A stretch of 64,000 nucleotides of DNA. Origin: Desulfobacterium sp. (GTDB lineage: Bacteria; Desulfobacterota; Desulfobacteria; Desulfobacterales; Desulfobacteraceae). Location: contig JAQYWC010000056.1 in NCBI GenBank assembly GCA_030145245.1, forward strand, positions 1 to 64,000, in the 5' to 3' direction. Below the pieces are notes generated by a model, which did not search any database, was not told the origin of the DNA, and saw only the letters and a list, made by a program, of their open reading frames with translations. The position numbers and the translations under genes are program-made. Every line of letters begins with the position of its first letter. Position 1 is the stretch's first letter. Shown one piece after another: positions 1,847 through 38,971 of the stretch.

Positions 1847-3619
1847 TTATATAAACACAAAGAGCATCACGATAAAGAGACCTGCACAGGCTGCAAACAA
1901 TCCCACGGGCGAGGTCCCGGTTGCAAATGCCGCATCCAGCTTCTTTTTAAAAATTTCCCGCCTCGGGTGTGGATTGTCCTTATTTTTAATAAAAGGCACT
2001 ATGGCCACCCAGGCAAGCCTTGCAGTCGCATCAATGGCAGCCTCGTTCACGGCACCTGTAAATTCCTTGACCAACAACCGGTCCATGACCCTGTTAAGCC
2101 CGTTCAAAAGGGTTGCGAGCCCGTTGGAAAGCCCCACCAGCGGCTTTCTGTAAAACCAGTCAAAATCAAGGTTAATGGCCCGTATCTCGGCAGGATAGAT
2201 GCCGGACAATAGCAACAGGGTGAAGGCCAGGGCCGAATAGAAGAGCAGTTCCGTCTGTGTCACCACATGGGAAAGGGTATAGGGTTCGTAGAGCGCCGGA
2301 TAGGGCAGAATGGAGTAAAGCGGCTTGTAAAAGGTGCCGTTGAAGATGCAGAGAAAGGCGGTGATACCCATGGCAACCAACATGTGTTTCGGTGCCTCCT
2401 TAACCCTGTGACCGGCATCGTGGCCAAAAAAGGCAAAGAACGGGATCTTGATTCCGGCATGGTGGAACACACCGGCCGAAGCAAAGAGCAGGACCAGCCA
2501 AACACCGACCATGTGATCTTTACCGGCCGCCGACATGACCATAGACTTGCTCACAAATCCGCTGAAGAATGGGAAAGCCGAGATGGATGCAGCCCCGACG
2601 ATACAGAAGCCAGCCGTCCAGGGCATGGACTTGTAGAGCCCCCCGAGATCGGTGGCATTAATCTTCCCGGTTCGATGGATCACGGCCCCCATGGACATAA
2701 ACAGGAGGCTCTTAAAAAGGATATCGTTACAGGCATGGGCCACGGCCCCGTTTATGGCAAGCTCGGTGCCGATGCCGATCCCCACCACCATGAACCCCAC
2801 CTGATTCACGAGACTGTAGGCCAGCACCCGCCTCAAATCGTTCTCGATCACGGCAAAGAAAATGGGAAAGGCGGCCATGGCAACCCCAATCCAGATAAGC
2901 AGCTCAGTTCCCGGAAAGGCCCTGGCCAGGGCGTACACGGCAGTCTTGGTGGTAAAGGCACTCAGAAAAACCGTACCGCCGATGGTGGCTTCGGGATAGG
3001 CATCGGTGAGCCAGGTGTGGAGAAACGGCCAGGCACAGTTGACCCCGATCCCCATGAAGATGAGCCAGGAGGAAAGCCCCGTGAGCCCAATGTGGCCAAA
3101 ATGGATGGAACCGGTCTCCACCACCATCATGACGATGCCGGCAAGCAGAGTCAGCCCCCCGGTCACATGAACCAGCAGATACCTGAATCCTGCTGCGGAC
3201 GAGGACTTGGAGCGCCGGGCCCAGATCAGCATGACCGACCCTACGGTCAGGGTTTCCCAAAAGGCAAAAAAGGTGAAAAGATCGCCTGCGAATACGGCAC
3301 CCAGGGCGGCCCCGGAATAAACAAACCCGGCCACATACTCAAGACTCTTCTTGACATGGAGAATGTAGATCACCGTCACAAAAGCGGCAATATGAAAAAT
3401 ATAGCCAAAGGCCAGACTCAACCGGTCGATCCGGACCAAAGTAAGCTCATAGTCCAGGAAACCTGCGGTCATAACCGTGTCCGCGGGAATGAGAAGCAGG
3501 TTGATCATACCGATCACAGGCAGGGAAACCACGTAGACCGAGCGGACCCGCCCCCGTAGAAACGGTATCACAAAGGCACCGAGAATAAAAATCATGAATG
3601 GAGGAAGCACATTAGTCAT
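1847..3619 (-). CDS. Third MrpD/NuoL-type antiporter subunit (divergent)
   Basis: A 590-residue polytopic membrane protein of the proton-conducting NuoL/M/N-MrpD family. The TM5-type glutamate is present in FWETLTVGSVM (Glu122) and the late SGFVSKSMVM lysine is kept. The segment that normally reads V-K-x-A-x-x-P-x-H-x-W-L-P instead reads VNCAWPFLHTWLT, so the central pumping lysine is replaced by Asn194. After the conserved core there is a long C-terminal extension with a final hydrophobic helix. The start follows GGGAGG and overlaps the preceding 82-residue gene by 8 bases. It is part of the Mrp/Mbh operon at 1340-9626. By homology it conducts or gates ions, but the lost lysine makes its own pumping uncertain. 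Confidence 0.85.
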   Translation of the reverse strand: MTNVLPPFMIFILGAFVIPFLRGRVRSVYVVSLPVIGMINLLLIPADTVMTAGFLDYELTLVRIDRLSLAFGYIFHIAAFVTVIYILHVKKSLEYVAGFVYSGAALGAVFAGDLFTFFAFWETLTVGSVMLIWARRSKSSSAAGFRYLLVHVTGGLTLLAGIVMMVVETGSIHFGHIGLTGLSSWLIFMGIGVNCAWPFLHTWLTDAYPEATIGGTVFLSAFTTKTAVYALARAFPGTELLIWIGVAMAAFPIFFAVIENDLRRVLAYSLVNQVGFMVVGIGIGTELAINGAVAHACNDILFKSLLFMSMGAVIHRTGKINATDLGGLYKSMPWTAGFCIVGAASISAFPFFSGFVSKSMVMSAAGKDHMVGVWLVLLFASAGVFHHAGIKIPFFAFFGHDAGHRVKEAPKHMLVAMGITAFLCIFNGTFYKPLYSILPYPALYEPYTLSHVVTQTELLFYSALAFTLLLLSGIYPAEIRAINLDFDWFYRKPLVGLSNGLATLLNGLNRVMDRLLVKEFTGAVNEAAIDATARLAWVAIVPFIKNKDNPHPRREIFKKKLDAAFATGTSPVGLFAACAGLFIVMLFVFI

Positions 3620-3860
3620 AATAATCCTCCCTTCTCTTTACCAGGGGACGCAGCACAAACCGTGACACAAGCACCAGGATCACGCAGGCGACAAACCCGA
3701 AGATCGCATAGAACACCGGCCAGTTCTCCCAGGGGAAGTGGGCGTGCTTGTGCACAAAAAAATCAAGGACAAACAGCAGGATTACCGAGCTGAAAAAGAT
3801 GATGAGCAACCGCTTCACATTTTCAGGCTTGTCAAACAGATGGTTTTTTTCTCTTTCCAT
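3612..3860 (-). CDS. Small two-helix membrane protein of the antiporter operon
   Basis: An 82-residue protein with two predicted membrane helices: LLIIFFSSVILLFVLDFFV (about 18-36) and FYAIFGFVACVILVLVSRFV (about 50-69). The ends are charged, with a basic/acidic tail RREDYYD. I do not recognise a named family. Its position between D-type antiporter subunits, overlapping the next gene by 8 bases, indicates co-translation and a structural role in the complex, comparable to the small accessory subunits of complex I-like machines. That role is inference from context. Confidence 0.75.
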   Translation of the reverse strand: MEREKNHLFDKPENVKRLLIIFFSSVILLFVLDFFVHKHAHFPWENWPVFYAIFGFVACVILVLVSRFVLRPLVKRREDYYD

Positions 3861-3884
3861 GACCTCAGACCTTTTTTTCCTTGT

Positions 3885-4010
3885 CTATAATGAGCTTAAG
3901 AATATCACGGCAAGGTAGAGAACGCTTGCCGCAAACACCACCAGAAACACGGGCTTATACCCCGGGACAGGATCGTGGGACAACTCTTGTTTATCCTCAT
4001 TCATGGTCAT
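3885..4010 (-). CDS. 41-residue single-helix membrane protein
   Basis: A very small gene whose ATG overlaps the stop of the upstream D-type subunit (TAATG at 4008-4012 read on the minus strand). That is a strong sign of translational coupling. The protein has a polar N-terminus, the motif PVPGYKPVF, and one hydrophobic helix (LVVFAASVLYLAVIFLSSL). A longer frame to 4121 exists but would run into the upstream gene in another frame and is rejected. No family is recognised. It is probably a single-span accessory subunit of the antiporter. Confidence 0.6.
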   Translation of the reverse strand: MTMNEDKQELSHDPVPGYKPVFLVVFAASVLYLAVIFLSSL

Positions 4011-5494
4011 TAGCCTCCATTGATTGATTGAACCGCAAGCTTTGCAAGATTCAAGAACGGCTGGGGATAGAAAAAGAGAACCATGGAGATACCGGCGGTG
4101 ATGGTCAGGGGAACCACGCACCAGATAGGCGCCTCCTCCACCCGGTTCTCAAAGGTCATCTCCGGCTCGCTCAGAAAGAATGCATTGTAAAATACGGGAA
4201 AGAAGTAGGCGGCATTGAGAAAGGAACTTCCAAGCAGCACCAGGAGCAAGAGCATCTGCCCGGATTCAATGGTGCCCACCACAAGGTACCACTTGCTGAT
4301 AAAGCCCCCGCAGGGAGGCAGGCCCACCACGGAAAGGGAGCCGATCAGGAAAGCGGTCATGGTGATGGGCATCTGCCGGCCGATCCCCTTCATCTGGCTG
4401 ATGTTCTTGATTCCGGTGGCGCAAAAGATGGCGCCGGCACAGAAAAAAAGGGTGATCTTGCCAAAGGCGTGCATGGCGATGTGGAGCATGCCGCCGGTCA
4501 TGCCCGAGGCAGACAACAGCCCCACCCCCAGGATGATATAGGAGAGCTGGCCGATGGTTGAAAAGGCCAGGCGTCGCTTGAGTTCATCCTGGGATAGCGC
4601 AATGAGGGAGGCGACCACCACGGTAATTGCGGCGATGGTACAGATGATCTCGTTGATGTGGAACGTGGCGAGGGTATCCACCCCCACGATGCCGGTAAAG
4701 ACCCGGACCACGCTGAAGGCCCCGACCTTGACCACGGCAACGGCATGGAGCAGCGCACTCACAGGCGTAGGTGCCACCATGGCTGCGGGCAGCCAGGAGT
4801 GCATGGGCATGATGCCCACCTTGGCAAACCCGAACAGAAACATGAGGGAGAGCACAAGGGCAAGGCCGGAATTCACATGGCCTGCCATGACCCCGTGGGC
4901 GGCAAAATCAAGGGTGCCGGTAAAATGATAGGTGATCAGCATGGCCGGAAGGGCAAGACCAATGGAGCCGCCCAGGATATAAAAAAGGTATTTCCGGCCG
5001 CTGGTTCTGGCGCTGCGGTCCTGGTGATGGGTGACCAGGGGATAGGTGGCAAGGGAGAGCATCTCGTAAAAGAGGTAGAGGGTCAGCAGATTCGCGGAAA
5101 AGGCAACCCCGATGGTTGCAGACAAAGCCACGGCAAAAAAGGAGTAGTACCGGGTCTGGCTGTGCTCGTCAAGGCCGCGCATATACCCCAGGGAGTAGAT
5201 GGAGGTGACGATCCAGAGGGAGGATGCCACAAGGGCGAAGAGCATGCCAAAGGCATCCACCCGGAAAGCGATCCCAAGGTCCGGAAAAATCTGAACCACG
5301 GTGTAGACCACGCTCTTGCCCTTTAAAACCAAGGGAAGCATGGAAAGCACCAGGAGGAACTTGATCGTTCCGGCAATGAAAGTCCAGGACTCCCGCATGT
5401 TCTGGGTCCGGGAGACAACAATGAACGGAATGACGACCAGGGATACGAGAACTGCAAGAAACGGTTTGACTGAGAGCACGGTTTCCATTGTCAT
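4010..5494 (-). CDS. Second MrpD/NuoM-type antiporter subunit
   Basis: A 494-residue polytopic proton-translocating subunit. It keeps both hallmark residues of the family: the TM5 glutamate in LFYEMLSLAT (Glu144) and the TM7 lysine in FAKVGIMPMHSWLP (Lys225), followed by the typical APTPVSALLHAVAVVKVG segment. A later lysine lies in GGFISKWYLV. It begins one base after the preceding D-type gene ends and its stop overlaps the 41-residue gene. It forms one of three antiporter-like channels of this membrane complex, exchanging Na+ or another cation for protons. The exact ion is not shown by the sequence. Confidence 0.9.
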   Translation of the reverse strand: MTMETVLSVKPFLAVLVSLVVIPFIVVSRTQNMRESWTFIAGTIKFLLVLSMLPLVLKGKSVVYTVVQIFPDLGIAFRVDAFGMLFALVASSLWIVTSIYSLGYMRGLDEHSQTRYYSFFAVALSATIGVAFSANLLTLYLFYEMLSLATYPLVTHHQDRSARTSGRKYLFYILGGSIGLALPAMLITYHFTGTLDFAAHGVMAGHVNSGLALVLSLMFLFGFAKVGIMPMHSWLPAAMVAPTPVSALLHAVAVVKVGAFSVVRVFTGIVGVDTLATFHINEIICTIAAITVVVASLIALSQDELKRRLAFSTIGQLSYIILGVGLLSASGMTGGMLHIAMHAFGKITLFFCAGAIFCATGIKNISQMKGIGRQMPITMTAFLIGSLSVVGLPPCGGFISKWYLVVGTIESGQMLLLLVLLGSSFLNAAYFFPVFYNAFFLSEPEMTFENRVEEAPIWCVVPLTITAGISMVLFFYPQPFLNLAKLAVQSINGG

Positions 5495-32827: not shown

Positions 32828-33067
32828 GGGGACGGATCTAAATCCGGCCCCGTCATAGCAATGGGGACAGATTTCAAATCTGTCCCCAAACACCTCCGGG
32901 GGACCGGCAGTTCCAGCCCCCGGCATAGCACCGTTGAAACGACACAAAGCTGCGTTTGCAGCTTTTTTTTATTAGCCATGGGGACTATCCATGGGGACAG
33001 ATTTCAAATCAGCCCCCGGAGACTTGTCCCCGATATTAGAATGGGGACAGATTTCAAATCTGTCCCC
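32828..33067. repeat. Cluster of palindromes of the GGGGACAGATTT type
   Basis: A 25-bp near-perfect palindrome (arms GGGGACAGATTT and AAATCTGTCCCC around one base) occurs at 32863-32887 and 33043-33067. Variants lie at 32993-33017 and, more degenerate, at 32828-32851. A further GC-rich palindrome (CCGGGGG...CCCCCGG) lies near 32896-32923. Translated, they give the peptide GTDFKSVP, a common source of false small proteins. They are dispersed intergenic repeats between serA and the FAD gene and may form RNA hairpins or protein sites. Confidence 0.85.
32946..32970 (+). terminator. Terminator of serC-serA operon
   Basis: AAAGCTGC (32946-32953), loop GTTT, GCAGCTTT (32958-32965) and a T run to 32970 make a standard intrinsic terminator about 135 bases after serA. 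Confidence 0.8.
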
Positions 33068-33080
33068 GAAGATTAGGACA

Positions 33081-36000
33081 ATGAAACGAAGAGAAAGAGA
33101 GATACCCTACAACTATACATCGGCCGATGACGACCAGGTCATCAGCCATCTGTTTGGCAAGGAGATGCTCCAGGATCTTGAGGTGCTCAGAAGCAAACGG
33201 AGAACCGGACGATCGGCAAGGCTCCTGTTCCGCTTCATGGGCGACATGTTCATGATCGAAAGAAACCCCTTCATCTTCCAGGAACTCCTTGACCACCCCC
33301 AACGGAGAAACAGCTTTTTCAAGAGCGTCAAGAAGGATTTGACCACCATAGAACAAGGCACAACAGACCCCAAGGTCTTCCAGGTGATCAAGGAGTGCAG
33401 AACCCATCTCTCCTCTCTTTCAAAACGTATCAAACAAGTGGCCAAAGACCGGAAAAAGGCGGTCAAGGCCCTGGAGGCAGTTACCGGACCGGACAGTGTC
33501 TATGTGGACCCCTTCACCCTCACGGCCCACACCACCGACGCCACGGACTGGCGCCTCTATCCCCCCTTTGCCGTTGTAAGACCCTCGGACGAATCCCAGA
33601 TGGGACCGCTGGTTAAAGCCATCAAGGAGCTGGGTCTCAACATTATCCCCAGGGGCGGCGGCACGGGACTTACCGGCGGCAGCGTCCCCCTGACCCGGAC
33701 CTGCGTGATGATCAACACGGAAAAGCTCGACACCATCCAGGGCATCCGCCATGAACGGGATTCATCCGGCAACGCCTTTGCCTGCATGGACCTTGACGCC
33801 GGTGTCATCACCGAGGATGCCATGGCCTTTGCCAAGAAGGATAACCTTGTGTTTGCAACCGATCCCACAAGCTCCTGGGCTTCGACCATCGGCGGCAACC
33901 TTGCGGAAAACGCAGGTGGCAAGACAGCCGTGCTATGGGGCACCGCCCTTGACAACATCCTCGCCTACCGGATCGTCATGCCCAGCGGCAAGCTCCTCAC
34001 CGTGGCGCGCCAGAACCATCCCCTGCGGAAGATCCTCCCGGACGACGAGGTGATCTTCGACGTCAGGGACGAAAAAGGTGCCCAGGTCGACCGGGTGATC
34101 CTCAAGGGAGACGAGATCCGGAAACGGGGGCTTGGAAAGGATGTCACCAACAAGACCCTCAACGGCCTGCCCGGCATCCAGAAGGAAGGATGCGACGGCA
34201 TCATCACCTCGGCCACCTTTATTCTCCACCCCCAGTATCCCCTGAAAAAAACCTTCTGCCTGGAATTCTTCGGCCAGGACATGACCGAGGCCGGCAAGGT
34301 GATCACCGACATCTCCAAGATCTTCAGGAACCGGGGCAACGAAGCCTGCCTCATCGCCCTTGAGCACTTTGACGAAGAGTATATCAAGGCCATCGACTAC
34401 AAGGCCAAGGCCGCAGGCACCGGCCGGCTCAAGGCGGTGCTTCTCATCGACATGGTGGCAAATACCGACCAGGAGCTCATGAAGGGTGAAGAAAAGCTTG
34501 AAAAGATCCTCAACCGCTACCAGAGGACCGAGCTCACCCCGGCCCGGGACGAGGAGGAGGCGGAACGGTTCTGGCGGGACAGAAAGCGCCTCGGGGCCAT
34601 TGCCAAGCGCACCAACGCCTTTAAGCTCAACGAGGACATCGTCCTTCCCATCGCCTCCCTGGCCGACTTTGCCAGCTATGTGGACGAGTACAATCTGGAG
34701 GAGAAGCGGTTCACCCAGCAGAGCCTGGTTGCGAACCTCATGGCCTACCTTGAAACGGCAGAGCCCCTGGAGGATCCCGACTGGCTCGTGGCCAAGGTCA
34801 GCCACGCAAAAACCCTTTCGGAAAAGGCCAGGATAAAAATCGCAAAGGCCTCCCGGGACAGCCTGGAGCGGGGCACCTATGCCGAGGAGTTCTATCTTGA
34901 GCTCCTGGAGATGTTAAGGGGATATACCCTTGTTTCCGAAACCCTCAAAAAGATCTATGAAGAGACCCTGGCACGGCTCATCGTCATTGCCACCCACATG
35001 CATGCCGGAGACGGCAACGTCCATGTGAACATCCCGGTGCTCTCCAACGACAGGGAGATGATGAAACGGGCCAGCCAGACCGCCGACGACATCATGGCCA
35101 AGGCCGTTATGCTGGAAGGGGCGGTGAGCGGCGAGCACGGCATCGGCGTGACCAAGTTTGCCCACCTTGACCCGGCCATCGTGGAGGAGCTCTCCCAATA
35201 CCGGCTCAAGATCGATCCCGAAGGCACCATGAACCCGGACAAGCTTTCGGAACCATCGGTGATGGAGCGGATCTTCACCCCGTCCTTCAACCTGTTGGGG
35301 CTTGAGGCCAGCATCCTCCGCTACGGAAGCCTGGGCACCCTGGCCGCCAACATCGCCAACTGCGTCCGCTGCGGACGGTGCAAGGCCACCTGCCCGGTCT
35401 TCTTTCCCCAGAAGAACCTCTTCTTCCATCCCAGGAACAAGAACCTTGCCGTGGGCGCCCTGATCGAAGCGTTGCTCTACGTCACCCAGCGCACCCGGTC
35501 CACCCAGTTCAGGCCCCTCCAGCAACTGGAACAGCTGGCAGACCACTGCACCATCTGCCATAAATGCCATACCCAGTGCCCGGTGAACATCGACACGGGG
35601 GAGGTGTCCGTGCTGGAAAGGGAGATCCTTGCGGAACAGAACTTCAAGCACACCCCGCTGCCCACACGGCTCAGCCTCAACTACCTTGCCACCCGGAACG
35701 AGCTCAAAAACGCAGGTCTGCGAAAGCTCCTGGTGGGCATGGGCGGCACCCTCCAGCGAACCGCATCACAACTGGTGGACGCCCTGCCCGACATCAAGCA
35801 GGCCAAAGAGCTGAGAACCGTTCAGATGCTCAAGGCGCCCATGCCGAAGGTACCCGGCAGCACCATGCGCAGCGCCCTTCCCTCCTGCGGCCCCAACCAG
35901 GTGATCCTGGCCGAACCGGAAGCACCCGCCCTTCACACGGTGTTCTACTTCCCCGGCTGCGGGTCCGAGCGTCTGTTTTCCGACATTGGCAAGGCTGCGG

Positions 36001-36683
36001 TCTACCTTCTCCTGAAAAACAGGGTAAGGGTGATCCTGCCGCCCCCCTATCTCTGCTGCGGATTTCCCGCCAGGGTCAACGCCAAGACCGAGCAGTTCAA
36101 CCGGCTGACCCTCAGGGACACCATCATCTTCAGCCAGATCCGGGACATGTTCAACGACCTTGACTTTGACGCCTGCATCATCAGCTGCGGCACCTGTAAA
36201 GAGTCGTTGGAGAATCTCGACATAAACACCATATTTGACTGCCGGGTGACGGACATTGCACGGTTTATCCTGACCATCAACCAGACCCTGGGACTGAAAG
36301 AGAACTACCTCTACCACGCCCCCTGCCACGACTCCCTCGAGGCCAAGGGCGCAGAGCTGCTCCTCTCCCGCTCCAAGGGCACCATGGACACGGTTCCCCA
36401 CTGCTGTTCCGAGGCCGGCACCATGGCCATGTCCCGGCCCGACATCTCCAACGCCATGCTGGACAGGAAAAAGGAGCTGATCCAAAGTGCCAGAAACGGA
36501 CAGACCGAGCAAATTAAGATGCTGACCAACTGTCCCTCCTGCCTCCAGGGCCTGGGCCGGAACCAGGATACCGGCATCGCTCCGGTCCACATCGCCTGCG
36601 AGCTTGCAGAGCGTTCCGGCGGACCCGCCTGGGAGAAGGAGCTCAAAAAGCTGATGAAGAACTCCGAGGTGATCACCTTTTAA
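33081..36683 (+). CDS. FAD-linked oxidoreductase with Fe-S and CCG domains
   Basis: A 1200-residue soluble fusion enzyme. An N-terminal region of about 130 residues (DUF3683-like) precedes an FAD-binding type 4 domain with VVRPSDESQMG and RGGGTGLTGGSVPLT. The FAD-oxidase C-terminal domain follows (ATHMHAGDGNVHVN and GAVSGEHGIGVTK). Two 4Fe-4S motifs are CVRCGRCKATCP and CTICHKCHTQCP. Two CCG-type repeats come last, one starting FYFPGCGS with LCCGFP, the other with APCHDS and CCSEAGTM. Relatives are D-lactate or glycolate dehydrogenases feeding electrons to a quinone or heterodisulfide-type partner. The ATG at 33081 is taken because an upstream in-frame ATG lies in the palindrome repeat. The stop overlaps the rsmE start. 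Confidence 0.88.
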   Translation: MKRREREIPYNYTSADDDQVISHLFGKEMLQDLEVLRSKRRTGRSARLLFRFMGDMFMIERNPFIFQELLDHPQRRNSFFKSVKKDLTTIEQGTTDPKVFQVIKECRTHLSSLSKRIKQVAKDRKKAVKALEAVTGPDSVYVDPFTLTAHTTDATDWRLYPPFAVVRPSDESQMGPLVKAIKELGLNIIPRGGGTGLTGGSVPLTRTCVMINTEKLDTIQGIRHERDSSGNAFACMDLDAGVITEDAMAFAKKDNLVFATDPTSSWASTIGGNLAENAGGKTAVLWGTALDNILAYRIVMPSGKLLTVARQNHPLRKILPDDEVIFDVRDEKGAQVDRVILKGDEIRKRGLGKDVTNKTLNGLPGIQKEGCDGIITSATFILHPQYPLKKTFCLEFFGQDMTEAGKVITDISKIFRNRGNEACLIALEHFDEEYIKAIDYKAKAAGTGRLKAVLLIDMVANTDQELMKGEEKLEKILNRYQRTELTPARDEEEAERFWRDRKRLGAIAKRTNAFKLNEDIVLPIASLADFASYVDEYNLEEKRFTQQSLVANLMAYLETAEPLEDPDWLVAKVSHAKTLSEKARIKIAKASRDSLERGTYAEEFYLELLEMLRGYTLVSETLKKIYEETLARLIVIATHMHAGDGNVHVNIPVLSNDREMMKRASQTADDIMAKAVMLEGAVSGEHGIGVTKFAHLDPAIVEELSQYRLKIDPEGTMNPDKLSEPSVMERIFTPSFNLLGLEASILRYGSLGTLAANIANCVRCGRCKATCPVFFPQKNLFFHPRNKNLAVGALIEALLYVTQRTRSTQFRPLQQLEQLADHCTICHKCHTQCPVNIDTGEVSVLEREILAEQNFKHTPLPTRLSLNYLATRNELKNAGLRKLLVGMGGTLQRTASQLVDALPDIKQAKELRTVQMLKAPMPKVPGSTMRSALPSCGPNQVILAEPEAPALHTVFYFPGCGSERLFSDIGKAAVYLLLKNRVRVILPPPYLCCGFPARVNAKTEQFNRLTLRDTIIFSQIRDMFNDLDFDACIISCGTCKESLENLDINTIFDCRVTDIARFILTINQTLGLKENYLYHAPCHDSLEAKGAELLLSRSKGTMDTVPHCCSEAGTMAMSRPDISNAMLDRKKELIQSARNGQTEQIKMLTNCPSCLQGLGRNQDTGIAPVHIACELAERSGGPAWEKELKKLMKNSEVITF

Positions 36684-37393
36684 TGAATCTAATACTACTG
36701 AAAGAGGACGACTTTACCTCGGCCGGCAGGGTGACCATCCGCGGCAGGCGGTTCACCCACATCCAGACCGTGCACCGGGCCGCGGTGGGGGATCAACTGA
36801 CGGCCGGACTCATCAACAACAAGATGGGTTCGGCCATGGTGACCCACCTCACCCCCTCATCCATTGAGATGGAGGTGACCCTTGACCAAACGCCCCCCCC
36901 TGCCCTGGATCTTACCTTAGTCATGGCCCTGCCCCGGCCCAAGATGCTCAAGCGGATCCTTCAGACCGTGACAAGCCTTGGGGTGAAGCGGCTCTACCTG
37001 ATCAACACCTGGCGGGTGGAAAAGGGGTTCTGGTCAAGCCCGGTCCTGGAGCCGGAAAGCCTTGGGGAACACCTGATCCTGGGCCTTGAACAGGCCAAGG
37101 ACACCATCATGCCAGAGGTGTTCCTCCGCCGGCTGTTCATGCCCTTTATAAAGGAGGAGCTTGAAACCCTCTCCCGGGACACCCTGAAACTTGTGGCCCA
37201 CCCCAAGGGCGGACGGGTCTGCCCCTGCCATCCCGGGCAACCCGTCACCCTTGCCATGGGACCCGAGGGAGGATTCATAGACAGGGAGGTTGAAACCTTT
37301 GAAAGGTTTGGTTTCGAAAACGTCAGCCTGGGCGAGAGAATCCTCAGGCTTGAAACCGCGGTCCCGGTTCTCATCTCCCGGCTCTTTACCTGA
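36683..37393 (+). CDS. rsmE: 16S rRNA m3U1498 methyltransferase RsmE
   Basis: A 236-residue SPOUT methyltransferase. An N-terminal PUA-like barrel (about 1-70) is followed by the knotted domain with ALPRPKMLKRILQTVTSLGV, AMGPEGGFIDREVE and the final LGERILRLETAVPV. It methylates U1498 of 16S rRNA using S-adenosylmethionine. Its ATG overlaps the stop of the FAD enzyme (TAATG), so it is translationally coupled although the functions are unrelated. Confidence 0.93.
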   Translation: MNLILLKEDDFTSAGRVTIRGRRFTHIQTVHRAAVGDQLTAGLINNKMGSAMVTHLTPSSIEMEVTLDQTPPPALDLTLVMALPRPKMLKRILQTVTSLGVKRLYLINTWRVEKGFWSSPVLEPESLGEHLILGLEQAKDTIMPEVFLRRLFMPFIKEELETLSRDTLKLVAHPKGGRVCPCHPGQPVTLAMGPEGGFIDREVETFERFGFENVSLGERILRLETAVPVLISRLFT

Positions 37394-37462
37394 AGGAAAT
37401 TCCTGTTAATCTTAAGCAAATACCTTGACAGGGAACCGGGAATATCATAGGAAACAAACGTT

Positions 37463-37558
37463 ATGAAAAACACAAACAGGACAATCACAGCAGCGGGCAG
37501 AGCATATTATTATTATTATCGGTATTATATCCGACTGCCCGAGGTGCGCTTATCCTGA
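37463..37558 (+). CDS. Tyr-rich leader peptide of tyrS
   Basis: A 31-codon reading frame (ATG 37463, TGA 37556-37558) that was not in the standard gene list because it is short. Codons 15-22 are five TAT (Tyr), one CGG (Arg) and two TAT (Tyr), giving YYYYYRYY. The rest is a short basic peptide starting MKNTNRT. An AGGA lies 10 bases before the ATG. It sits in a leader with alternative hairpins directly in front of tyrosyl-tRNA synthetase, exactly the layout of a ribosome-mediated attenuator: ribosome progress over the Tyr codons reports charged tRNA-Tyr level. The peptide itself is probably discarded. Confidence 0.85.
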   Translation: MKNTNRTITAAGRAYYYYYRYYIRLPEVRLS

Positions 37559-37614
37559 CATAATGTAACAAGATGAGATATAAGCCGCGGGCAGAGATGC
37601 TTCGCGGCTTTTTT
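37494..37614 (+). promoter_or_regulatory. Transcription attenuator of tyrS (alternative stems 1:2, 2:3, 3:4)
   Basis: Four segments can be marked. Region 1 is CGGGCAG (37494-37500), just before the Tyr codons. Region 2 is CTGCCCG (37535-37541), just after them. Region 3 is CGGGCAG (37588-37594). Region 4 is CGCGGCTT (37603-37610). 1:2 and 2:3 are each 7 perfect base pairs and exclude one another. The terminator AAGCCGCG (37582-37589) with region 4, followed by TTTTTT, overlaps region 3. Stalling on Tyr codons should cover region 1 and allow 2:3, which blocks the terminator. A ribosome that finishes the peptide covers region 2 and allows termination. The stems are read directly and the mechanism follows the trp/his/phe attenuator model. 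Confidence 0.85.
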
Positions 37615-37620
37615 GTTTTT

Positions 37621-37661
37621 AAGGGCCGCAGAAGAAGTTTTTCCTGCGGCCCTTTTTTTTT
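37621..37661 (+). terminator. Second strong terminator between leader and tyrS
   Basis: AAGGGCCGCAG (37621-37631) pairs perfectly with CTGCGGCCCTT (37644-37654) over 11 bp with a 12-base loop and a 9-T run. It lies 24 bases before the tyrS ATG. GCCGC in its left arm (37625-37629) is complementary to GCGGC in the right arm of the first terminator (37604-37608), so freeing that arm by antitermination may also open this hairpin. Confidence 0.75.
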
Positions 37662-37684
37662 CAAAAATCATGAAAGGAGCTATT

Positions 37685-38971
37685 ATGAGTGTACTGACTA
37701 TTCTGAAAGAGCGCGGTTTTATCGAAAACACCACCCATGACAAGGAACTGGCCGAATACCTGGAAAACGAAGGGGCCACCTGTTACATCGGTTTCGACCC
37801 CACGGCCGAGAGCCTCCATGTGGGACACCTGATCCCCATCATGTCCCTGGCCCATATGCAGAAAAACGGCCACCGGCCCATCGCCATGGTGGGGGGCGGC
37901 ACCGGCAGGATCGGGGACCCATCGGGAAGAACCGAGATGCGGCAGATGATGACCCTCGATACCATTGAGAAGAACATGCAGGGCATCAGAAAGCAGCTCT
38001 CCTCCTTTATGGATTTCGACCAGGACGGGGCGATACTGGCAAACAACGCAGACTGGCTGGCAACCCTCGAATATATCCCCTTCCTCAGGGATGTGGGACG
38101 GCATTTCAGCGTGAACCGGATGATAAAGACCGAAGGCTACAGGACGCGCATCGAGTCCGAAGAAGGCCTGAGCTTTATCGAGTTCAACTACATGCTTCTC
38201 CAGGCCTATGATTTCTGCAAACTCTTCGACAACCACGGCTGCCGTCTCCAGATGGGGGGAAGCGACCAGTGGGGAAATATTGTGGCAGGAGTGGAGCTGG
38301 TCCGCAAGATGCGCAGGGAGACGGTGTTCGGCATCACCTTCCAGCTGATCACCAAGAGCGACGGCACCAAGATGGGCAAAACCGCAGGAGGTGCTGTGTG
38401 GCTGGATCCGGAAAAAACCTCCCCCTACGAGTACTTCCAGTTCTGGGTAAACACCGACGACAGGGATGTGGCCCGTTTCCTGGCCCTCTTCACATTCCTT
38501 CCCCTGGAGGAGATCGAGGAGGTGAAAACCCTGGAAGGTGCAGCACTCAACAGCGCCAAGTCCATCCTCGCCTTTGAAGCCACCAGCCTTGCCCACGGCA
38601 GACAGGAGGCGGTAAAGGCCCTCACCGCCGCGGCGAGCATGTTCGGGGCAAGAAAAATCGGGGCCGATATTCTTCCGTCCAGCACCATCAACAGGGTCAA
38701 TTCCGAAGGGGCGAACCAGTTCCTGCCCTCCACCGCCATAGAAAAGGCCGAGCTTTCTGCCGGGATTCCTGTCTACCAACTATTTCACAGGGTGGGTCTG
38801 GTAAAATCAGCCGGAGAGGCAAGGCGTTTGATCACCCAGGGGGGCGCTTACATGAACGAAAATCACGTAACAGCCTTTGACCTGACCGTAGATACCTCCC
38901 ACTTGGAAAACGGGGAGATCGTACTCAGGGCGGGCAAGAAACGGTATCACAGAATAACGGTCAACCTGTAA
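37685..38971 (+). CDS. tyrS: Tyrosyl-tRNA synthetase
   Basis: A 428-residue class I synthetase. The HIGH-type motif is HVGHL in DPTAESLHVGHL and the KMSKS-type loop is KMGKT in SDGTKMGKTAGG. The tyrosine site region is QMGGSDQWGN. The C-terminal S4 RNA-binding domain is at about 360-428 (AGEARRLITQGGAYMNE). The ATG at 37685 follows AAAGGAG. An in-frame ATG at 37613 lies inside the leader terminators and is rejected. Expression is predicted to be controlled by the Tyr-codon attenuator upstream. Confidence 0.96.
   Translation: MSVLTILKERGFIENTTHDKELAEYLENEGATCYIGFDPTAESLHVGHLIPIMSLAHMQKNGHRPIAMVGGGTGRIGDPSGRTEMRQMMTLDTIEKNMQGIRKQLSSFMDFDQDGAILANNADWLATLEYIPFLRDVGRHFSVNRMIKTEGYRTRIESEEGLSFIEFNYMLLQAYDFCKLFDNHGCRLQMGGSDQWGNIVAGVELVRKMRRETVFGITFQLITKSDGTKMGKTAGGAVWLDPEKTSPYEYFQFWVNTDDRDVARFLALFTFLPLEEIEEVKTLEGAALNSAKSILAFEATSLAHGRQEAVKALTAAASMFGARKIGADILPSSTINRVNSEGANQFLPSTAIEKAELSAGIPVYQLFHRVGLVKSAGEARRLITQGGAYMNENHVTAFDLTVDTSHLENGEIVLRAGKKRYHRITVNL

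Follow-up and report, generated by a model that had tools for sequence, protein, structure and literature searches.

Why should a tyrosyl-tRNA synthetase gene of a sulfate reducer be preceded by a short open reading frame (ORF) in which seven of eight codons specify tyrosine? The question arises in the window analyzed here, a 64,000-nucleotide stretch of a Desulfobacterium sp. contig, where a leader peptide ORF (MKNTNRTITAAGRAYYYYYRYYIRLPEVRLS; 37463-37558, plus strand; 31 codons followed by TGA) lies ahead of tyrS (37685-38971, plus strand), which encodes a tyrosine--tRNA ligase of 428 aa. The candidate regulatory codons (37505-37528, plus strand) are five TAT (37505-37519), one CGG for arginine and two further TAT (37523-37528), and a possible ribosome-binding site, AGGA, stands at 37449-37452 on the same strand. 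A first-pass annotation had proposed a ribosome-mediated, Tyr-codon attenuator of tyrS with a complete trp-like switch of four segments. As detailed below, the attenuator itself is well supported, since a Tyr-run leader and a terminator-like hairpin accompany tyrS in all 13 members of its clade and the first terminator helix covaries. The four-segment switch has to be given up: a second terminator lies between the first and tyrS, and a further pairing is conserved.

Along the plus strand we distinguish six segments, whose pairings are written 1:2, 2:3 and so on. Segment 1 (CGGGCAG, 37494-37500) pairs with segment 2 (CTGCCCGAGG, 37535-37544, including CTGCCCG at 37535-37541) in a helix that has no covariation support. 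The alternative partner of segment 2 is segment 3 (37582-37593), the 5' arm of terminator 1; the 2:3 pairing extends to 37594, the end of another CGGGCAG (37588-37594), and is 10 nt long at 90% when extended. Segment 4 (37598-37610) forms the 3' arm of terminator 1 and is followed by a T-rich stretch up to 37620. Up to this point the first-pass annotation had described the DNA accurately: the ORF with its codon run, the three heptamers, the 2:3 complementarity and the hairpin at 37582-37610 with a T run behind it are all as it had them. It overlooked a second, stronger terminator hairpin (37621-37654) and the pairing of this hairpin with the 3' arm of hairpin 1. Segment 5 (37621-37635), the 5' arm of terminator 2, can form 11 pairs and one bulge with segment 4 in the window, and segment 6 (37640-37661) comprises the 3' arm (to 37654) and nine T (37653-37661). 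Between the end of hairpin 2 and the tyrS ATG at 37685 lie 30 nt, with the tyrS Shine-Dalgarno sequence, AAGGAG, at 37674-37679. Since terminator 2 still stands ahead of the gene after 3:4, formation of 2:3 would not by itself open tyrS to transcription, and any model must account for RNA polymerase passing two terminators in series.

The 245-nt leader of the window is unusually stable when folded (z = -6.5, with 0 of 200 shuffles equally stable), and its 1:2 duplex reaches -16.6 kcal/mol (shuffle p 0.016). The minimum-energy fold of these 245 nt has base pairs between the T-rich tract of terminator 2 and the tyrS Shine-Dalgarno region (37653-37679). A simple terminator scan of the window listed no hairpins, neither terminator among them, against 3.4 expected in shuffles; the probable reason is its rule, which excludes bulges and loops longer than 8. 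The best sigma-70-like promoter ahead of the window leader is an 8/12 match that 45.5% of shuffles equal, which is not convincing, and a 10/12 match precedes the leader in 3 of 13 relatives.

The gene behind this leader is a tyrosine--tRNA ligase by profile (TIGR00234, 394.2 bits for a cut-off of 113.8), and its best solved-structure matches are TyrRS. It is a second, patchily distributed copy and not the housekeeping tyrS. The other tyrS of the same genome (C83:20072-21349), 63% identical to the window copy, lies about 50 nt behind the RNase Y gene rny and has no Tyr leader. In a quick tree of 59 rows, a branch of SH-aLRT 99 separates the window TyrRS and 12 others from the remainder, which includes the C83 copy. 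The same clade is separated by score in a sample of the order (389 genomes), where 12 places reach at least 789 bits and the next has 750; as at most four candidates per genome were scored in this sample and in that of the phylum, a second copy could be missed. A scan of the family found clade TyrRS in 11 of 86 genomes, namely 10 of 19 in genus g8 and one of three in the window's genus, and a second family had it in 2 of 30. None was found in 394 other genomes of the phylum, evenly sampled, among the up to four candidates scored per genome. Three clade members belong to a Desulfobacter, a Desulfosarcina and a Desulfobacterales assembly.

Two further ideas about this distribution were discarded. 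Carriage of clade TyrRS on plasmids was one: of 99 plasmid records with matches at E <=1e-50, none attains 60% identity. The other was loss of the housekeeping copy in the genomes G361, G002 or G335, which we dropped as evidence because G002 and G335 have one lower-scoring PF00579 match only, hence no TyrRS at all, and also because the sequence next to the G017 housekeeping copy consists of N. In that genome an N stretch (L141, positions 2704-5001) truncates the housekeeping tyrS, and the same probably explains why some complete genomes (G002, G335) show no TyrRS. Two more class I synthetase places with lower PF00579 scores were seen in the window's own genome (C57:26564-27418 and C13:8566-9411); they are probably TrpRS, and tryptophanyl-tRNA synthetase may be duplicated there too.

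We then compared the leaders. An ORF with at least 4 Tyr in 8 codons precedes tyrS in 13 of 13 clade members versus 0 of 123 other fetched tyrS loci; the latter represent 117 distinct upstreams (120 of the loci with at least 420 nt, three with less), and many more housekeeping tyrS genes appeared in the searches than the 123 compared. The 13 members are distinct, the duplicates L112, L113, L114, L118 and L143 having been removed, of which L143 was equated with L032 via contig coordinates and not letter by letter. Clade leaders hold 4-7 Tyr per 8 codons, as in YYYCGYYPYP and YYYGYYISGC, and the distance from the first Tyr codon to the stop codon is 45-54 nt in all 13. Among 2600 dinucleotide shuffles of the 13 upstreams, at least 4 Tyr in 8 codons arose in 8 and at least 5 in none. 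When the first 111 loci were scanned with looser settings, a few had Tyr clusters that lacked a usable start codon, such as 4 Tyr in L102. The L119 leader is without a clear ribosome-binding site. A lack of Tyr runs in relatives, which the first-pass annotation had named as speaking against an attenuator, is thus true of the relatives' housekeeping tyrS and untrue of the orthologues of the window copy.

Within the window's genome, a search with the pattern TAYTAYTAYTAY turned up no further leader with four Tyr codons in tandem, a pattern that would miss leaders with only three, the usual state in relatives. It matched 17 times, including two matches in the window itself. The 15 others were rejected: nine lie in open frames of at least 151 codons, four have no in-frame start, and the remaining two are one site on C20, opposite another ORF. 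The start-less site on C15 lies within another ORF in a different frame.

The surroundings of the unit are variable. Among 47 neighboring ORFs of at least 80 codons in the 13 loci, a common neighbor occurs only in L117 and L120, which are close relatives; one further short match, between L115 and L119, runs against the leader strand. Upstream flanks are short (about 400-530 nt) in L032, L033 and L115. As neighbors differ among loci, leader and tyrS stay together while their surroundings change. Several observations were made in passing. L117 (478-1059) and L003 (2-823, minus strand) carry phage-integrase genes close to the unit, and L116 (3668-4009) an integrase-core gene. In L115 and L116, about 100-160 extra bases separate terminator 2 from tyrS, with ends that are similar and inverted by eye; they look like a small inserted repeat element. 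In the window, rsmE lies upstream of the leader in the same direction and ends at 37393. It overlaps by one base a 1230-aa ORF (32991-36683) in which a FAD oxidase part resembles GlcD and an iron-sulfur part LdhH/GlpC; all of these matches fall below curated cut-offs.

If the leader works through alternative RNA structures, which helices are kept? Conservation was counted on a plain MAFFT alignment of the 13 members, and because these sequences are related, the shuffle counts given here are not probabilities. Two tandem hairpins follow the leader in 13 of 13 members. A T-rich tail (at least 5 T in 9) follows hairpin 2 in all 13 and hairpin 1 in 12; in L032 the tail of hairpin 1 has only 3 T in 9, and hairpin 2 is the sole terminator-like hairpin. 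The distance from the end of hairpin 2 to the ATG is 30-50 nt in 10 of 13. The 3:4 helix is paired in 90.0% of cells, compared with at most 48.1% for slid versions, and both sides have changed in 10 cells, a count that 0 of 500 shuffles reached. The core of 4:5 is paired in 76 of 78 cells (97.4%) in the same columns, with slid versions at 66.7% or less.

Covariation in 4:5 gives a mixed signal. Five cells have both sides changed, and neither that count nor the covariation score was reached in any of 500 shuffles; only two pairs have changed on both sides, which 193 of 500 shuffles equalled, and the number of pair types was equalled in 426 of 500. Base permutation of segment 5 gives p <=0.05 in 10 of 13 members, and cognate 4:5 duplexes come to -12.9 versus -10.8 kcal/mol for cross-species pairs. 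The 4:5 columns of the alignment are also engaged in 3:4 and 5:6, and hairpin 2 may have arisen by duplication of hairpin 1, in which case 4:5 would come for free. The 2:3 helix is paired in 83.9% of cells (slid versions <=51.9%) with covariation not above shuffles, its score being equalled in 56 of 500. For 1:2 the register is not conserved; 70% of cells are paired, and 143 of 500 shuffles equal the covariation score. The covarying stems that the first-pass annotation expected in relatives are therefore found for 3:4 and not for 1:2 or 2:3. Single-sequence dinucleotide shuffles are beaten by 1:2 in 8 of 13 members and by 2:3 in 4, and the window passes these controls for 1:2, 2:3 and 4:5. What sequence and comparison bear out is the leader ORF, its Tyr run, both hairpins and the conserved 4:5 and 2:3 complementarity, together with the restriction of the Tyr-run leader to one clade among the loci fetched.

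We next asked of the folding models what a ribosome on the leader would do to these helices. With assumed ribosome footprint sizes, we folded whatever RNA remains unoccupied in three situations: ribosome on the first Tyr codon, ribosome on the stop codon, and no ribosome. With the window transcribed through segment 5, a ribosome at the first Tyr codon gives 9.0 expected pairs in 2:3, 0.0 in 3:4 and 10.9 in 4:5. A ribosome at the stop codon gives 0.0, 11.6 and 0.2 for the same helices, and no ribosome 0.7, 10.7 and 0.8. Before segment 5 exists the switch is weaker: through segment 4, with the ribosome stalled, 3:4 still exceeds 2:3 at equilibrium (6.7 vs 3.7 expected pairs), so terminator 1 would be blocked only partly at equilibrium in the window. 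Once segment 6 is present, 5:6 wins in all ribosome states (13.1, 13.1 and 13.0 expected pairs), and any on-state must therefore be kinetic. The folding comparison suggested with the first-pass annotation thus turns out both ways: given segment 5 the window flips to 2:3 with 4:5, and with segment 6 terminator 2 wins. Since 5:6 prevails in the window with or without a stalled ribosome, we discarded equilibrium folding as proof of an on-state.

Relatives differ in the same calculation. L032, L116 and L033 switch like the window, as does L034, except that its 4:5 forms in every state; the equilibrium shift from 3:4 to 2:3 plus 4:5 is partial in L117, L120, L121 and L115, and there is none in L123, L003, L119 and L122. 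When the structure present before segment 4 is held, 4:5 forms in 13 of 13 (the structure held in L003 being a partial 2:3). Barriers were estimated with Findpath, a heuristic. Reaching terminator 2 from there takes an estimated 9.6 kcal/mol in the window, at least 7.4 in 9 of 13 members and 2.1-3.2 in 4 of 13; the barrier from 2:3 to 3:4 is 3.2 kcal/mol in the window, 0.9 in L032, 1.5 in L034 and 7.4-15.1 in the other ten. These models make a kinetic relay on the time scale of transcription plausible. Our confidence in the relay is lowered, and that in a four-segment switch slightly raised, because the segment-4 fold of the window and its low barrier from 2:3 to 3:4 oppose a full block of terminator 1.

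We consider it likely that this locus is a Tyr-specific, ribosome-mediated transcription attenuator of six RNA segments, which controls an auxiliary tyrS as an on-demand backup TyrRS. With ample charged tRNA-Tyr, the ribosome translating the leader would pass the Tyr codons to the stop codon and cover part of segment 2; 3:4 and then 5:6 would form, and RNA polymerase would stop before tyrS. With charged tRNA-Tyr scarce, the ribosome would stall at the first Tyr codons and leave segment 2 free to pair with segment 3, releasing segment 4, which would pair with segment 5. As 2:3 would form before segment 4 exists and 4:5 before segment 6 exists, neither terminator would form in time, and polymerase would read through into tyrS. 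An untranslated leader would form 3:4 and 5:6, a default off state. The enzyme induced in this way would be a backup TyrRS made on demand.

Other readings of the locus have to be weighed against this one. A trp-like attenuator of four segments, in which the work is done by 1:2, 2:3 and 3:4 alone, with terminator 2 as a leaky backup that lowers basal expression, would suit the perfect or near-perfect 1:2, 2:3 and 3:4 of the window, as well as equilibrium folding, by which terminator 2 is not stopped in either state. We nevertheless find it rather unlikely. All 13 members have a T-rich tail behind terminator 2, in L032 no other hairpin is terminator-like, 4:5 complementarity is kept in 76 of 78 cells, and in the window 2:3 cannot outcompete 3:4 before segment 5 exists. 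It is far less probable still that the tandem terminators just end the rsmE transcript, with the tyrS promoter beyond them and the Tyr run incidental. The co-directional rsmE ending at 37393 and one weak promoter-like match at 37658-37686 could be read in this sense, but that match would place the transcription start within tyrS. Moreover, the gap from hairpin 2 to the ATG is 30 nt in the window and falls between 30 and 50 nt in 10 of 13 members, and flanking ORFs vary, yet Tyr run, hairpins and spacing are kept in all 13.

Two other readings concern how the signal would be sensed or where it would act. The pairing of the terminator 2 T-rich tract with the A/G-rich Shine-Dalgarno region of tyrS, predicted in the 245-nt fold, raises the idea that the leader acts partly at translation. 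We see very little chance of this, as that pairing is A-U rich and predicted for the window alone, and it would leave the Tyr codons and the first hairpin unexplained. That the leader is a T-box sensing uncharged tRNA-Tyr directly appears highly improbable at the sensitivity of the searches: tyrosine genes are T-box targets elsewhere, according to passages of PMC1262725, and a terminator does stand ahead of the gene, but the whole window is without any Rfam family at gathering score, and no T-box is among the 17 matches at E <=5 in 37380-37700.

Among known attenuators, that of the his operon of enterobacteria has six segments, A-F, and stalling there forms B:C and D:E, preventing terminator E:F. 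The tyrS leader resembles it in its run of regulatory codons within a leader peptide and its chain of overlapping hairpins, and a D:E-like conserved helix (4:5) is present. In the place of the A:B protector helix stands 1:2, which is strong in the window and paired in 70% of alignment cells, with no covariation. It differs in its Tyr codons, in preceding a synthetase gene and in the T-rich tail on the middle hairpin, 3:4, in 12 of 13 members. Because the additional 4:5 pairing is conserved, a his-like layout working as a two-terminator relay is most likely. The T-box of Firmicutes tyrS senses tRNA directly, without translation; gene and, in effect, signal are the same as here, where no T-box match was found.

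Passages of PMC1262725 name pheST, trpS and leuS as classical attenuators and place tyrosine genes under T-box control. Like the pheST attenuator of gamma-proteobacteria and those of Streptomyces trpS and leuS, as treated there, the present leader would attenuate a synthetase gene by its own amino acid, unlike them with another amino acid and in another lineage. The uORFC-8-2 motif upstream of cysS in Rhodobacterales, described in PMC8632094, which also treats an aroF uORF motif, likewise combines an upstream ORF bearing tandem codons for the synthetase's amino acid with a terminator; it differs in its Cys codons and single terminator, and the section describing it has no relay. His leader peptides precede the hisS paralogues hisZ and hisS* of bacilli, in passages of PMC2965389 that do not mention tyrS. 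These too are duplicated synthetase genes, some with a leader-peptide attenuator, a likeness by description and not by sequence, and they differ in being His leaders of Firmicutes.

The full-text literature searched, with subscription papers mostly outside its scope, gave no identifiable description of a Tyr-codon attenuator on tyrS, nor any case of leader-peptide attenuation in Desulfobacter or Deltaproteobacteria; the relevant passages of PMC9413887, PMC4833913, PMC3937554 and PMC8262941 have nothing on a tyrS leader. With about even confidence, we propose this locus as the first Tyr-codon ribosome-mediated attenuator, a two-terminator relay on a patchy auxiliary tyrS that would form a portable, self-contained backup with its own sensor of tRNA-Tyr charging. 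If true, the amino acids and synthetases controlled by leader-peptide attenuation would come to include tyrosine and tyrS, and there would be a natural relay in which two serial terminators are disarmed by one stalled ribosome. A possible reason also emerges for the presence of two TyrRS in some sulfate reducers, one beside rny and one on demand, and kinetic folding studies can draw on the 13 leaders as a ready set for comparison. Set beside the systems above, the class of mechanism is known, while the amino acid and gene, the tandem-terminator form and the link to a duplicated synthetase appear new as far as we have checked.
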